From: Bacteroidaceae bacterium
GTDB taxonomy: Bacteria; Bacteroidota; Bacteroidia; Bacteroidales; Bacteroidaceae
Direction: 5' to 3'
DNA: 64,000 bases
Assembly: GCA_024398615.1 (NCBI GenBank)
Contig: JAKSIU010000001.1
Span: 97,694 to 161,693 of the forward strand
Shown here: positions 43,727 to 48,938 of the stretch, one piece after another
Position numbering within the stretch: position 1 is the stretch's first letter
Layout: each line of letters opens with the position of its first letter
Translations under genes and position numbers: made by a program
Notes under the pieces: generated by a model
Database searches by the model: none
What the model saw: only the letters and a program-made list of their open reading frames with translations
Told to the model about the DNA's origin: nothing

Positions 43727-44425
43727 TTACAAAAAAGGTACCAAAGGAAGGTCGGCAAAAGTGTGAATTGTGCAATCGGCTCTGAAGTCCGATGCCGGTG
43801 CGCCCTCGAACGACAGTCCCCGGTCAAGCAGACATGTGCGGCAGCCGGCCGAAGCTGCAGGTACGATATCCTTGTCGGGACTGTCACCGACCATGAGGAT
43901 TTGGCAAGGTGGCAGGCCAAGGACATCGCAGCCCATGCCGAATATCCGGGAATCCGGCTTGCGCACACCCACGACCGACGACTCCACCACCCCCTTGAAG
44001 AAACGGGCTATCCCCAGTTCGTCAAGGACACGGTTCATGTTGCCGTAGAAATTGGTCACAAGCACTATCGGATATCTTTCAGAAAGGGATTCCAGTACAG
44101 GCGATGACACCGTAGCGACATTGTTCCTGACCTTGTCCATACAGAAGTCGCATATAGCATCTGCGCCAGTCACATGAACGCCTTCAGACAAAAGGAATCC
44201 GGTCTGAAGGGCAATCTTCGTTTCCAGGGTACGGCTGAACGTGAATGAAGGCTCAATCACGTGATTGCGGCCCAGAGTACGTTCGGCATGGACGTATGCC
44301 ATGCGGAGCATATCTTCGGGCAGGTCATTTCCACAGCGGGAATATGCCTCCCGGAACATGCGGAACCAGTGGATGCCGTCAGTATCGACAGTTCCTCCGA
44401 AATCAGTCAGTATTCCCCGTATCAT
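43727..44425 (-). CDS. HAD-superfamily hydrolase with atypical motif I
   Basis: 232 residues. Motif I reads DFGGTVDTDG: the nucleophile Asp8 is kept, but the usual second Asp (general acid) is Gly. Motif II lies at LVTNFYG; motif III Lys is in GVRKPD; motif IV is MVGDSPDKDI. The cap between residues ~15-90 is helical (subfamily I). Phosphonatase and haloacid dehalogenases also lack the second Asp, so simple phosphatase action is not assured. It overlaps the flippase-like gene by 23 bases and closes the five-gene cassette, where a phosphate-removal step would fit. Confidence 0.8.
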   Translation of the reverse strand: MIRGILTDFGGTVDTDGIHWFRMFREAYSRCGNDLPEDMLRMAYVHAERTLGRNHVIEPSFTFSRTLETKIALQTGFLLSEGVHVTGADAICDFCMDKVRNNVATVSSPVLESLSERYPIVLVTNFYGNMNRVLDELGIARFFKGVVESSVVGVRKPDSRIFGMGCDVLGLPPCQILMVGDSPDKDIVPAASAGCRTCLLDRGLSFEGAPASDFRADCTIHTFADLPLVPFL

Positions 44426-45425
44426 GATGCAGTTTCATAAGAAGTATTCCGACAACCGTCCAGACCAGTTCGCGCACTCTCGTAACCAGAGACACATAGA
44501 CACCGTAGGCGCCCGGCACCTGAAGACCGCTGGCTGCAATGGCCATTCCGCCTTCACGTCCGCCAAGCTGCATTGGCGAGAAGAACACCATATTGCTGAA
44601 CAGTGACGAGAAAGCCAGGACCAGCAGTCCGTCAAAGAAGGTGAAACCGGGAACCAGCAGTCCTATGAGCAGCCAGTATTCCAGGCTTGAGAGCACTCTG
44701 GCCATGTATTCCAGCAGAAGCGAGCCCCAGAACGGAGTCCTGCGCTCAGCATGCAGGGCGGCAATCTGTTCATCGACTGACGCAAGCTGTTCCAGATGTG
44801 AATCACGGAATCCTACAGCCCACCGTCTGACCAGAGGGACCCTGCACAGCAGGCCGAACACCTTCACCACAAAGCCCTTGCGGTATCCCAACGAGAACAG
44901 GTACAGGACCGTGGCGAACACAACGCCCATCAGCGAAAGCAGTATGACCATTCCCGTGCCCAACGGATATTTTCCGGCATCGGCAAGGAAATGGAGCAGC
45001 ACATAGACAATCACTCCCGTCATCCAGAGGCAGAAATGCGAGCAGACATGCATCATGGCATACAGGATAGTGCTTGAGGCGGCTTTTCTCCTACCCACAT
45101 ACCCGCCCAGTTCGAGGATTCTGTAAGGTTCGCCTCCAAGCAGTCCGAGCGGGGTGACATAGTTCAGCGCATAGCCGGAGACCGTAAGCTGGAATATCCT
45201 GCCGAACGGCACACGTCCGCTGTGTCCGTCACGTATTATGAGTCCGAAAGAGCAGGCATTCAGCACGTAGACCGCTCCCCATAACAGCACGATGACCGGG
45301 AACCATATTCCGGCCTGGGTCAGGACACCGCGTACCTGATGCCAATCGGACTTCATGGTGAGCAGCATTATGACAACAGCCGCCAGTCCGCACAGGAAGA
45401 ATATGTTACGCCAGCGTTTCTTCAT
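44403..45425 (-). CDS. LPG-synthase-TM / UPF0104 flippase-like membrane protein
   Basis: 340 residues with about eight membrane helices. NYVTPLGLLGGEPYRI and SPMQLGGREGGMAI are the two short signature loops of the lysylphosphatidylglycerol synthase transmembrane (PF03706) family, seen in lipid flippases and MprF-like proteins. There is no soluble aminoacyl-transferase domain. It probably moves a lipid or lipid-linked product across the inner membrane. ATGA overlap (45422-45425) couples it to the CDP-alcohol phosphotransferase. Confidence 0.85.
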   Translation of the reverse strand: MKKRWRNIFFLCGLAAVVIMLLTMKSDWHQVRGVLTQAGIWFPVIVLLWGAVYVLNACSFGLIIRDGHSGRVPFGRIFQLTVSGYALNYVTPLGLLGGEPYRILELGGYVGRRKAASSTILYAMMHVCSHFCLWMTGVIVYVLLHFLADAGKYPLGTGMVILLSLMGVVFATVLYLFSLGYRKGFVVKVFGLLCRVPLVRRWAVGFRDSHLEQLASVDEQIAALHAERRTPFWGSLLLEYMARVLSSLEYWLLIGLLVPGFTFFDGLLVLAFSSLFSNMVFFSPMQLGGREGGMAIAASGLQVPGAYGVYVSLVTRVRELVWTVVGILLMKLHHDTGNTD

Positions 45426-46348
45426 ATTCCGGCAGTCATTTCCCGACAGACCTTTTCATGCGAATGTTTCATATAGGCCTTGATGACCTGCATCACTGTC
45501 ATCTCAAAGATGAAATACACCCATGGCACTCCGGCCAGAAGAGTCACATACAGCACTATGGCACGGGTGTTGAAAGTCAGGATGTTGGTCCATTTGAGCA
45601 GATGATACGTACGGCGGCAGAATTCCGTCCCTGTTTCCTGCGGGATGATGTCACCATATTCTGCGCGTAACGCGTTCCTGAAAGACTGGAAGCACGGGGT
45701 CATGAGCTCCTGGGAACGGGTATAGTTCTTGTAGAAGAAGAGGCCTGTTTTCCATGGCCAGTCATTCTTCCATGTCAGCGTTTTCCATTCACTGTCCAGT
45801 TCACGGCTGTCATTGAGCTCCGAGTGGTCACCGTGGAACAGCAGATAGATATTCCGGTAGTAGTCGGCCAGTGCAGCCTGGGGCACATGAAACAGGAAAC
45901 CGCATGTCATTTCAAGAACCAGCAGATGCCATACGCGCCACTCATGGCCTTCAAGGAAGGGCATCGGAGTGTGCAGGAGCCTGAAACCCAGGCAGATGTA
46001 TATGGCTATGAACCAGGCGTCACCGGCAAGACCGTCAAGCAGACGTCCCCAAAGGGTCTTCTGCCCGGTCATACGTGCCAGCTGGCCATCAGTGCTGTCC
46101 AGGAAGTTGGCAAGGACCAGCAGGACTATGCCCGCAACGGTCCACCCCAGACTGCGGTCCAGCCAGCAGAGTCCGGCTCCCACTCCAAGGAATATGGACA
46201 GTATGGTCACAGCATTGGGATGAACCCCGAACCTCTTGAAGAACAGGGCCAGAGCGTAACCGACACGGCGCGTGAAGACCACATCCAGCCATTCCTCGGT
46301 ATCCTTTGATTTGAAAGTGGCCTGCAGGCCATCGGATTTTCCACTCAT
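45422..46348 (-). CDS. CDP-alcohol phosphotransferase family protein
   Basis: 308 residues with several membrane helices and a hydrophilic insert of about 70 residues (~160-225). The family motif DxxDGxxAR occurs as D84-S-T-D87-G88-Q-L-A91-R92, followed eight residues later by G101 and then D105. The final catalytic Asp expected at position 109 is Gly, with Asp at 110, so the last spacing is one residue longer than usual. It should transfer a phospho-alcohol from a CDP donor to an acceptor. ATGA overlaps on both sides couple it to the ATP-grasp and flippase genes. Confidence 0.85.
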   Translation of the reverse strand: MSGKSDGLQATFKSKDTEEWLDVVFTRRVGYALALFFKRFGVHPNAVTILSIFLGVGAGLCWLDRSLGWTVAGIVLLVLANFLDSTDGQLARMTGQKTLWGRLLDGLAGDAWFIAIYICLGFRLLHTPMPFLEGHEWRVWHLLVLEMTCGFLFHVPQAALADYYRNIYLLFHGDHSELNDSRELDSEWKTLTWKNDWPWKTGLFFYKNYTRSQELMTPCFQSFRNALRAEYGDIIPQETGTEFCRRTYHLLKWTNILTFNTRAIVLYVTLLAGVPWVYFIFEMTVMQVIKAYMKHSHEKVCREMTAGI

Positions 46349-47124
46349 AATACACGTAACTTATCTGATACCAGCCGTGCAATGGCCAGAGCCGCCCTTT
46401 CACGGCATACGCCAAAGCTGGGCCAGTCGTTTATATCGACAGCAACAGCACTCCCATCGTTGCAGATGACCGCATCGCCGCCAAAGACTTCCAGGCCAAG
46501 CAGCGCGGCCGCCCTCTCCGCAATATCCCCGATAAGGCCGATGTCCGTCCCCTCGCTGTCCATGCCCACGATTCCGGCACCTTTGACCGCGTAGAACTTG
46601 ACCGTCCGGCCCGACATATGTTTCTGAAGGACGCACTCCCCTATCCCACGATTGCCGAACGTCTGCATTATCCCGGCGCATTCGTCAGCATTCCCGGCAA
46701 GACTGACATCGCCGGTTCCAAGCGATGCCTGGCTGTCCGCCCTTTTGACCCAGCACGGCCATGAATGCCAGCCGGCCGGCACACCGTGGACAGTCCGGCA
46801 GACCATGCTTTCCGGAATCAGTCCGCTTCCTTCAAGTCTACGGACCAGCGTTCCCCTGACACAGGCCCGGACCGATGCCGTACCGTTAACGGCAGGCACC
46901 CCGGATATGTCAATACGTTCCAGTGCCTCTTCGCTCCGTGTCATGTGCAGGACCGCATCCATGCCGTCAGGAACGCTACCGGCCGCCAGTGAATCCTCGT
47001 CAGTTACAGTCACCCCAAAGCCCATCTGCTCCAGATTCCGGCCAACGGAATCGAGGATGGCGGAATCGGCCTCAGTGCTGTGAGGCGAAAAACGTGGACT
47101 GCGTCTTACGAGAAGTATGTTCAT
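46345..47124 (-). CDS. ATP-grasp family enzyme (RimK/ITPK-like)
   Basis: 259 residues from the Met at 47124, whose ATG overlaps the upstream stop (ATGA). A central WVKRADSQAS strand-loop and QKHMSGRTVKFYAV resemble ATP-grasp nucleotide and substrate loops. The metal-binding strand ends VAVDINDWPSF: the DIN-x-x-P pattern is closer to inositol-phosphate 5/6-kinase (DINYFPG) than to the E-x-N of most RimK ligases. It could be an amino-acid ligase or an alcohol-phosphate kinase. Third-party confirmation is absent; the fold call is firm, the reaction open. Confidence 0.7.
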   Translation of the reverse strand: MNILLVRRSPRFSPHSTEADSAILDSVGRNLEQMGFGVTVTDEDSLAAGSVPDGMDAVLHMTRSEEALERIDISGVPAVNGTASVRACVRGTLVRRLEGSGLIPESMVCRTVHGVPAGWHSWPCWVKRADSQASLGTGDVSLAGNADECAGIMQTFGNRGIGECVLQKHMSGRTVKFYAVKGAGIVGMDSEGTDIGLIGDIAERAAALLGLEVFGGDAVICNDGSAVAVDINDWPSFGVCRERAALAIARLVSDKLRVL

Positions 47125-47819
47125 CTGCAATCACCTATCAGGCGGCGGGCCCCCTCGAGGTCTGCCAAATGATCGACATCAATTACCCGTCCCATATCAA
47201 ACGCGCTGAGTTCCAGTCCGTACTCAAGCAGGCGGCGTTGGAAATGGCGCATTCTTCTCTCCCCGTCAGCAACCGCACTTCTCAGGACATCAAGCGCGAC
47301 AGGGGGAAGGCAGTATACACCGGCCGACACGAAACGGCTGTCGCCACGGCTATCCAGGAATGCACGGATCATCATGCCTTCATCAGTATCGACATACAGC
47401 GGCTTCTCGTCATCGGCATAAGAGGTCACCCCCATAACTCCGTCAGCCCCGCAGGTCCGTGCATGTTCAAGCAATGCCTCAAGACCGGACTTATGGAAAA
47501 CGGTATCGACCGTAGTCGCGCAGAACGGTTCCCCATCCAGGAACGGGGCAAGCTCCAGCAGGCTGTGCATGGGACCCGGAGTCTCCTTCACGACCAGGTC
47601 CAACGGCATACGGGTCTGCAGGGCACGCATGAACCCGACAGTCTCATTCTGCGTTGGATTGACTATGACAGCGACCCTTTCAGCACCGCAGTTCAGGAAA
47701 ATTCCGGCAAGGCGTTCAATCATGGGCATGCCTCCCAGGCTGAGCATGGGTTTCGGCAAGTCAGCCCCTTCGGCTGCCAGACGACTGCCGTTTCCGGCTG
47801 CTATTATGGCAAAGCGCAT
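47121..47819 (-). CDS. NTP-transferase (sugar-nucleotidyltransferase/LicC-like)
   Basis: 232 residues. FAIIAAGNGSRLA and LPKPMLSLGGMPMIERL form the nucleotide-binding loop and catalytic Lys of the GT-A-like NTP_transferase fold. The strand TTVDTVF holds the metal-binding Asp. Size and single domain are like LicC, MurU and inositol-1-phosphate cytidylyltransferases. It probably makes the nucleotide-activated phospho-alcohol used by the CDP-alcohol phosphotransferase two genes on. First gene of the cassette, 30 bases after pdxA. Confidence 0.82.
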   Translation of the reverse strand: MRFAIIAAGNGSRLAAEGADLPKPMLSLGGMPMIERLAGIFLNCGAERVAVIVNPTQNETVGFMRALQTRMPLDLVVKETPGPMHSLLELAPFLDGEPFCATTVDTVFHKSGLEALLEHARTCGADGVMGVTSYADDEKPLYVDTDEGMMIRAFLDSRGDSRFVSAGVYCLPPVALDVLRSAVADGERRMRHFQRRLLEYGLELSAFDMGRVIDVDHLADLEGARRLIGDCR

Positions 47820-47849: not shown

Positions 47850-48938
47850 TTATTCTTTAGGAATGTCGAAACGCAGTCTTTCACTGTCATCACGACGTTC
47901 GAAATACAGTTTCTTGAGCGGATTGGCATGAATCTCCTTCTCGTTCCTGCGATTGCGTTCTATGTCTATGGCAGCGAATATGGCCTGGCGCATTGAATCC
48001 TCGCTGGCCAGTCCCTTGCCGGCTATATCGTAAGCGGTACCATGATCCGGTGAAGTGCGCACTACCGGCAAACCTGCCGTATAGTTGACACCGCCCTCCA
48101 TGTCCATGGCCTTGAGAGGAATCAGTCCCTGATCATGATACATGGCCAGAATGGCATCGAAACGGCGATAGTCACCGCTGCCGAAGAACCCGTCGGCAGG
48201 GAAGGGTCCGAAAGCCTGGATCTTCTGTGCGGCAGCCTCTTCAATGGCCGGACGTATAATCTCCTCTTCCTCACGCCCAAGAAGGCCGCCGTCTCCGGCA
48301 TGCGGATTCAGTGCCAGAACGGCTATACAGGGCTTCTCGATTGCGAAATCCTGTTTGAGCGACTTATGCAGGATTTCCAGCTTTTCGACAATCAGTTCCT
48401 TTGTCAGGCTTCCGGCAACCTGGGCGATAGGCTCGTGGACAGTGGCCAGTGCAACACGCATGGTACTGTTCATAAGTATCATCAGAGCCTTCTGGCCATC
48501 GCCGAGACGGTCTTCCAGATATTCGGTATGACCGGGAAAGCTGAACGATTCACTGTGTATGGTCGCCTTGTTTATGGGAGCGGTCACTATTGCGTCAATC
48601 TTGCCGTCACGGTAATCGCTGACGGCACGTTCAAGAGCCTCGAATGCGGCCTTTCCGCTTTCCTGACTGGCCACGCCCAATTCAATCCTGACCTCACCGG
48701 GATTGCATTCCACCAGATTCAGACGGTTGGGCTCGGCATTTGCGGCATCGGCAATGACATCGGTATGTGTCTGCAGGTCAAGTGCCTTGCGGTGATAAGA
48801 AGCGATTTTTGACGAGCCGTAAACAACAGGTATGCAGAACTCGTACATCATGGGGTCCTCAAAAGTCTTGAGAATTGTCTCGTATCCTATTCCATTGACA
48901 TCGCCCTGGGTGATGCCTATCTTCAATCTGTTTTCCAT
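47850..48938 (-). CDS. pdxA: 4-hydroxythreonine-4-phosphate dehydrogenase
   Basis: 362 residues. IGITQGDVNGIGYE opens the protein; metal-binding His residues lie in FPGHTEYL and YHDQGLIPLKAM; RTSPDHGTAYDIAGKG is the C-terminal PdxA signature. It oxidises 4-phosphohydroxythreonine in pyridoxal phosphate synthesis. It begins two bases after the DUF4837 gene ends, in the rlmN-DUF4837-pdxA order, and leads into the five-gene lipid-type cassette. Confidence 0.93.
   Translation of the reverse strand: MENRLKIGITQGDVNGIGYETILKTFEDPMMYEFCIPVVYGSSKIASYHRKALDLQTHTDVIADAANAEPNRLNLVECNPGEVRIELGVASQESGKAAFEALERAVSDYRDGKIDAIVTAPINKATIHSESFSFPGHTEYLEDRLGDGQKALMILMNSTMRVALATVHEPIAQVAGSLTKELIVEKLEILHKSLKQDFAIEKPCIAVLALNPHAGDGGLLGREEEEIIRPAIEEAAAQKIQAFGPFPADGFFGSGDYRRFDAILAMYHDQGLIPLKAMDMEGGVNYTAGLPVVRTSPDHGTAYDIAGKGLASEDSMRQAIFAAIDIERNRRNEKEIHANPLKKLYFERRDDSERLRFDIPKE

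Follow-up and report, generated by a model that had tools for sequence, protein, structure and literature searches.

An ATP-grasp gene accompanies the predicted alternative inositol-lipid cluster of Bacteroidota

We analysed a cassette of five genes (minus strand, 43727-47819) in a 64,000-nucleotide stretch of a Bacteroidaceae genome, hereafter the window. The five open reading frames (ORFs), listed below, encode a nucleotidyltransferase (NTP), an ATP-grasp protein, a homologue of CDP-alcohol phosphotransferases (CDP-AP), a membrane protein related to lysylphosphatidylglycerol synthases (LPG protein) and a HAD protein. In all probability they are a member of the CDP-inositol cluster already predicted to make inositol lipids in Bacteroidota. 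The new point concerns a gene that had been overlooked: the ATP-grasp gene nearly always accompanies this cluster.

47121..47819, minus strand: NTP nucleotidyltransferase, proposed inositol-phosphate cytidylyltransferase (PF12804 NTP_transf_3, 9.9e-15; PF00483 NTP_transferase, 1.8e-8)
46345..47124, minus strand: ATP-grasp protein, proposed inositol(-phosphate) kinase or ligase (PDB profile matches of relatives)
45422..46348, minus strand: CDP-AP homologue lacking the fourth Asp of the canonical signature (PF01066 CDP-OH_P_transf, 9e-13)
44403..45425, minus strand: LPG_synthase_TM membrane protein of the MprF/HpnL-like kind, presumably a flippase or transporter (PF03706, 1e-18)
43727..44425, minus strand: HAD subfamily IA protein with motif I DFGGT (PF00702 Hydrolase, 2.1e-14)
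47850..48938, minus strand: pdxA, upstream neighbour, 30 bases from the cassette (TIGR00557, above its cut-off)

The preliminary description of this DNA had called the pathway uncharacterised, which does not hold: in 2022 Heaver et al. (PMC9246714) published this gene content, as that of a putative inositol-lipid cluster. According to that paper, nearly all Bacteroides and Prevotella species bearing MIPS have either a B. thetaiotaomicron-type or an alternate cluster. Besides NTP-transferase, CDP-AP and HAD genes, the latter has a lysylphosphatidylglycerol synthase-like gene close by; MIPS belongs to it in B. vulgatus and Prevotella, and is not directly clustered in P. copri. A Kennedy-like route through CDP-inositol is proposed, which is unconfirmed by the authors' own statement, and a later paper (PMC10191378) describes the alternative route as predicted in silico. 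In a search of mainly open-access literature, we found no biochemical test of this route, and no paper joining inositol lipid, ATP-grasp and Bacteroid-.

We file the window cassette in this predicted cluster because it shares the gene content, and because the order of genes is identical in locus L151, where rlmN, DUF4837, pdxA, NTP, ATP-grasp, CDP-AP, LPG and HAD genes are followed 2.2 kb further on by MIPS. Locus L151 lies in a single-contig genome, presumably that of P. vulgatus ATCC 8482; if so, the unnamed tags between BVU_RS13095, 13105 and 13115 would be the ATP-grasp and LPG proteins. The pattern printed in PMC9246714 for PHI-BLAST, in which the fourth Asp is present, would not match the L151 CDP-AP, which has Gly there.

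As in the alternative cluster of B. vulgatus and Prevotella, the window has NTP, CDP-AP and HAD genes together and an LPG-synthase-like gene nearby. It differs from the published description in having an ATP-grasp gene, a term absent from the main text of PMC9246714, and in that MIPS is unlinked. The B. thetaiotaomicron cluster BT_1522-1526, a route through PIP synthase and PIP phosphatase, is likewise fed by MIPS and uses a CDP-AP-type enzyme, whereas the window cluster has NTP and ATP-grasp instead. No BT-like cluster, in which genes for PIP synthase, PIP phosphatase and an IPC-synthase-like protein accompany MIPS, was recognized in the window genome: its three PF01066 matches are all on contigs other than that of MIPS, and PAP2_3 stayed below the cut-off (PgpA-type phosphatases were not searched for).

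The association of these genes is widely conserved. We compared 80 named loci, the best 80 of 505 confirmed CDP-AP loci (pattern matches being more numerous still), and found NTP in 76, ATP-grasp in 72, HAD in 72, pdxA in 48, the LPG gene in 32 and MIPS in 20. NTP, ATP-grasp, CDP-AP and HAD occur together in 69 of the 80, which places the gene order far from chance, and pdxA shares the stretch with this four-gene core in 47. The neighbours of CDP-AP are thus conserved, and the scattering of homologues that would have spoken against a pathway did not appear. Counts rest on our own hidden Markov model cut-offs, 40 bits for the order- and family-sample loci and 25 bits for the split and deep-branching loci described below; some fetched stretches end at contig ends, and the window genome (about 82% complete), like the others compared, is a draft.

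Among the eight named loci whose stretch has no ATP-grasp gene, seven have it elsewhere in the genome and only G400 has none, so that 79 of the 80 genomes carry it. An ATP-grasp-free version of the pathway, with NTP and CDP-AP alone, is thus unsupported. In one order-sample locus (L061:620-1894) NTP is fused to CDP-AP in a protein of 425 residues, and its 9-kb stretch has no ATP-grasp gene; its genome (G036) gave no match to the ATP-grasp profile in the order-sample search.

We next examined the link with inositol. The preliminary description saw no MIPS, which is true within the window, but the window genome encodes one on another contig (a single match, G000:C4:13490-13828, PF01658, 1.1e-32), whose stretch has a GC content close to that of the window (51-52% for both). 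In a sample of 197 genomes of the order, 27 matched the ATP-grasp profile; MIPS was present in 25 of the 25 carriers retained, against 8 of the 172 other genomes. Two weak ATP-grasp matches (G026 and G135), neither with MIPS, had been dropped, and the figure is 25 of 27 if they are kept. In a sample of 199 genomes of the family, MIPS was found in 115 of 129 carriers and in 26 of 70 non-carriers. Fisher tests gave 5e-25 and 3e-14 for the order and family samples respectively, values that overstate independence because the genomes are related. CDP-AP, ATP-grasp and MIPS share one stretch in 20 of 33 order-sample loci. The headgroup, left as unknown in the preliminary description, is therefore most likely inositol, because the window genome encodes MIPS and because ATP-grasp tracks MIPS across genomes.

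Gene fusions and split operons suggest how the work may be divided. Among 113 loci, we found fusions of NTP with ATP-grasp (5), of NTP, ATP-grasp and CDP-AP (1), of ATP-grasp with CDP-AP (1), of CDP-AP with HAD (2), of LPG with HAD (2, plus three family-sample loci), of LPG with NTP (1) and of NTP with CDP-AP (1, the L061 fusion above). Most of them join genes that are already adjacent. In five Prevotella or Prevotellaceae genomes (L089, L092, L100, L101 and L133), only NTP and CDP-AP are found at the usual place, and ATP-grasp and HAD lie elsewhere, beside MIPS. In four of these genomes the two are fused into a single frame of 512-542 residues; in the fifth they are separate genes, side by side and overlapping. 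This pairing is informative because the usual gene order keeps ATP-grasp and HAD apart, and their position beside MIPS suggests that the pair acts on the soluble product of MIPS, with NTP and CDP-AP activating it and attaching it.

From the gene content, the conserved order and the association with MIPS, all read in the sequences, we infer the following steps. MIPS would make D-inositol-3-phosphate; the ATP-grasp protein would phosphorylate it, and HAD would remove the other phosphate, the net effect being a phosphate moved on a soluble inositol phosphate. NTP would then make CDP-inositol, CDP-AP would transfer phosphoinositol to a lipid, either diacylglycerol or dihydroceramide, and the product would be flipped or exported by the LPG-type membrane protein. 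We consider this explanation as a whole, an alternative CDP-inositol cluster with relocation of phosphate by ATP-grasp and HAD, to be rather probable. The role of ATP-grasp and HAD as a pair acting on soluble inositol phosphate, taken separately, is put forward tentatively, as much weaker than the assignment to inositol lipids. A lipid-headgroup pathway acting on a CDP-activated polyol, as in the preliminary description, agrees with these data, whereas its order of attaching, trimming and flipping can still only be inferred.

Several observations weigh against the relocation pathway. First, HAD lacks the usual acid/base Asp. Motif I of subfamily IA phosphatases is DxDGT, and its second Asp is replaced by Gly in all 23 relatives (DxG[GA]T) and all 72 named HAD proteins (DxGGT). 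Active HAD phosphatases of the YihX type share the missing Asp, so its absence does not disprove phosphatase activity. By its place in the split operons, HAD may have a soluble inositol phosphate, not a lipid, as its substrate. Second, MIPS lies on another contig than the cassette in the window genome, and MIPS was not detected in 14 of the 129 family-sample carriers, among them four genomes about 99% complete. These 14 genomes (L153-L166) all have ATP-grasp, CDP-AP and HAD, and NTP was seen in 12; their inositol supply or headgroup may differ, with inositol taken from outside or another alcohol used. Third, we know of no lipid described from the window organism.

Features of the CDP-AP itself also weigh against the pathway. 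It scores 49.3 bits against CDP-OH_P_transf, above the gathering score of 22, its closest solved sequence is AF2299 (4o6m, 7e-12), and it can be described from its sequence as a divergent homologue of CDP-alcohol phosphotransferases. The signature of these enzymes is D1xxD2GxxAR...GxxxD3xxxD4 (PMC4634129), and seven of the eight residues are present in the window protein, including DxxDGxxAR and GxxxD, with Gly at D4. In none of the 80 named loci is the signature complete, the D4 position being Gly in 77, Ser in 2 and Ala in 1. In RsPIPS this fourth Asp is the putative catalytic base, and its change to Asn nearly abolished activity (PMC4634129). Coarse hydropathy moreover predicts about six membrane helices, none past residue ~295, the number of soluble-acceptor enzymes, lipid-acceptor enzymes typically having three or four more (PMC4634129). 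Together, the missing D4 and the six or so helices sit badly with a plain Kennedy-type reaction. Four more distant CDP-AP homologues in the order sample keep the fourth Asp. In two loci (L053:5025-5906 and L055:6379-7266), another CDP-AP, more distant and with the canonical Asp at D4, lies a few kb upstream of the cluster.

Alone, the window ATP-grasp protein matched no Pfam or NCBIfam model. Three overlapping alignment profiles of its relatives (A2, A3 and A6) were therefore searched against the PDB, and six sequences of inositol-tetrakisphosphate 1-kinase (ITPK) type were matched: 1z2n, 7pup, 2odt, 13lz, 2q7d and 2qb5, the last four bearing that name. Their scores ranged from 1.4e-6 to 1.5e-3 (A2), 3e-4 to 5e-3 (A3) and 3e-7 to 1.8e-4 (A6). 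The top match was 1z2n for A2 and 7drm, named ATP-grasp domain protein in the PDB, for A3 and A6. The part shared with ITPKs is mainly the metal site, which in the C-terminal lobe of these kinases is Asp/Asp/Asn. D219, D232 and N234 are invariant in the 30 aligned cluster members, the region around them aligns with identical letters in ITPKs (D...DxN, then P[SG][FY]), and the motif D-x-N-D-[WF]-P-S-[FY] is present in all 72 named members. Few single members match the ITPK model PF05770 (4 of 50 and 2 of 30, best E 7e-4), and the window protein is not among them; in the window genome no match was found at E up to 10. The ATP-grasp fold is thus clear by profile, and either a kinase or a ligase would fit it. 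The protein may be an unrecognized kind of inositol kinase. ITPK1 is reported to use inositol-3-phosphate, the product of MIPS, and not free inositol (PMC8024741). The precise version of this idea, a distantly ITPK-like kinase which with HAD would convert D-inositol-3-phosphate, via a bisphosphate, to D-inositol-1-phosphate, we regard as doubtful.

The strongest competing explanation, possible if less likely than the relocation pathway, is that the ATP-grasp protein is a carboxylate ligase decorating the inositol headgroup, for instance with an amino acid, HAD then removing a phosphate or being regulatory. Against a kinase, 7drm, presumably a peptide ligase, leads two of the three profile searches, ATP-grasp ligases score similarly to ITPKs, with chains of RimK (ribosomal protein S6 glutamate ligase) and 3vpb, which we take to be ArgX, also among the matches, and single members match RimK-type models about as often as the ITPK one (2 of 50 and 4 of 30). 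On the other hand, 7drm and 3vpb have Glu in place of the first Asp when aligned, whereas all 30 cluster members have Asp in the second metal site (D-x-N), as ITPKs do. The wider distribution of the cluster also bears on the ligase reading.

In a phylum sample of 392 genomes, the ATP-grasp profile matched 26; the match was strong in 15 and weak in 11 (E 8e-10 to 4e-4). We studied twelve further loci, mostly deep-branching: eleven lie outside the class, in ten genomes, and the twelfth within it. NTP, ATP-grasp, CDP-AP and HAD are present in all twelve, and MIPS follows directly after HAD in ten. The cluster of locus L197 also contains, by Pfam, MlaE, an MlaF-like ABC ATPase, MlaD, a class-III aminotransferase and a Gfo/Idh/MocA gene weakly similar to inositol 2-dehydrogenase. 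Relatives of the latter two are found in eight of the twelve loci, and so is the MlaE/F/D trio; the loci with the aminotransferase and the inositol-dehydrogenase-like gene, mostly with the trio as well, are L190-L193 and L196-L199. Such an aminotransferase and dehydrogenase could supply the amine that a ligase would acylate. However, neither the 80 named loci nor the 20 family-sample ones contain a relative of the aminotransferase, Gfo, MlaD or MlaE genes (an MlaF-related ABC ATPase is present in two of the 80), and the 33 order-sample loci yielded three ABC ATPases and a single aminotransferase, in the MIPS stretch of the window genome (L064). The Mla-type genes support a lipid product, and the other two hint at amino-inositol lipid variants in the deep branch. 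Four of these loci (L190-L193) carry a tandem pair of ATP-grasp genes of the cluster type.

The scheme as published (PMC9246714) is an explanation that we find rather unlikely. In it, NTP converts the MIPS product straight to CDP-inositol, CDP-AP couples this to diacylglycerol as in the Kennedy pathway, and HAD acts as synthase of phosphoinositol dihydroceramide (PI-DHC), converting phosphoinositol diacylglycerol (PI-DAG) to PI-DHC; the ATP-grasp protein would be an accessory. The CDP-AP+HAD fusions, seen here in L136 and L147 and reported in P. veroralis (PMC9246714), favour it. So do two of the weaker PDB matches of CDP-AP, cholinephosphotransferase 1 (9.7e-5) and CEPT1 (7e-4), both lipid-acceptor enzymes. 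Yet a gene found in 79 of 80 genomes can hardly be an accessory, HAD joins MIPS and ATP-grasp when the operon splits, a soluble HAD would be odd as a lipid transferase, and CDP-AP has about six membrane helices where nine or ten would be expected.

That the product is not a lipid at all, but a soluble compound of the di-inositol-phosphate kind or a surface phosphodiester, seems improbable. An NTP with a CDP-AP of about six helices does resemble the IPCT/DIPPS pair of hyperthermophiles, a cytidylyltransferase and a CDP-AP, and six helices is what soluble acceptors go with (PMC4634129). The model NF041135 (archaeal inositol-1-phosphate cytidylyltransferase/DIPPS) weakly matches both window parts; it matches all 30 aligned NTP members, the window NTP scoring 25 bits against a cut-off of 580. 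Unlike that pair, the window proteins are separate, CDP-AP lacks D4, and ATP-grasp and HAD are extra. The Mla-type genes in eight of the twelve mostly deep-branching loci, the LPG_synthase_TM genes in many clusters, and the presence of PI-DHC in B. vulgatus, a species without BT-like genes (PMC9246714), all speak for a lipid.

Finally, a headgroup made of another polyol or amino alcohol, with an indirect association to MIPS, is very improbable: the 14 carriers in which MIPS was not detected, and an NTP about as close to sugar nucleotidyltransferases (their models score equally or better than NF041135, and sugar-type enzymes head the PDB matches of the NTP, which include 1jyk, a phosphocholine cytidylyltransferase, and 2xme, an inositol-1-phosphate cytidylyltransferase), are set against the many loci where MIPS shares the stretch and its presence in all 25 order-sample carriers retained after dropping the two weak matches.

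Returning to the window, the reading of the junctions and the ORF coordinates bear out the tight coupling described earlier: ATGA overlaps join NTP to ATP-grasp, ATP-grasp to CDP-AP and CDP-AP to the LPG gene, and 23 bases (44403-44425) are shared by LPG and HAD. The ATP-grasp start that yields the ATGA overlap is ATG 47124, TTG 47130, the choice of the ORF list, being possible as well. Upstream on the same strand, pdxA is preceded by two ORFs which we presume to be DUF4837 and rlmN; downstream, also on the same strand, lies relA/spoT, whose first in-frame ATG (43703) is 23 bases past the end of the cassette. The LPG protein matches the HpnL subfamily at 2.5e-17, below the cut-off of that model. 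The ATP-grasp protein lacks about 25 residues (the FFYWFY...HSKFG region) found in most aligned Bacteroidales relatives; a near relative (L071) lacks them too and distant ones lack a part, and we do not call the gene broken.

Elsewhere in the window genome, contig C40 (L032, 1-12000) bears a copy of the cassette at 39-66% identity, flanked by rlmN, DUF4837 and pdxA at 57-78%. We treat this contig as a probable assembly contaminant from a related species, and not as a second pathway, because its GC content is 47% against 51-52%. An alpha-oxoamine-synthase-type gene beside an SDR-looking gene (L070:1441-2709) is possibly a sphingolipid step; its identity as a serine palmitoyltransferase was set aside, the match being below the family cut-off and not separable from paralogues of that enzyme.

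The inositol lipids that gut Bacteroidota make are similar to lipids of the host, and the abstract of PMC9246714 reports lowered fitness of B. thetaiotaomicron in mice in the context of these lipids. The second route to them has so far been a prediction only, and the conserved ATP-grasp protein, with a HAD protein possibly to be reassigned, provides concrete enzyme candidates. The pair raises the question of which inositol stereoisomer enters the lipid: if it does relocate the phosphate, CDP-inositol and the lipid made from it would have the eukaryote-type stereochemistry, which would amount to a new route to phosphatidylinositol.

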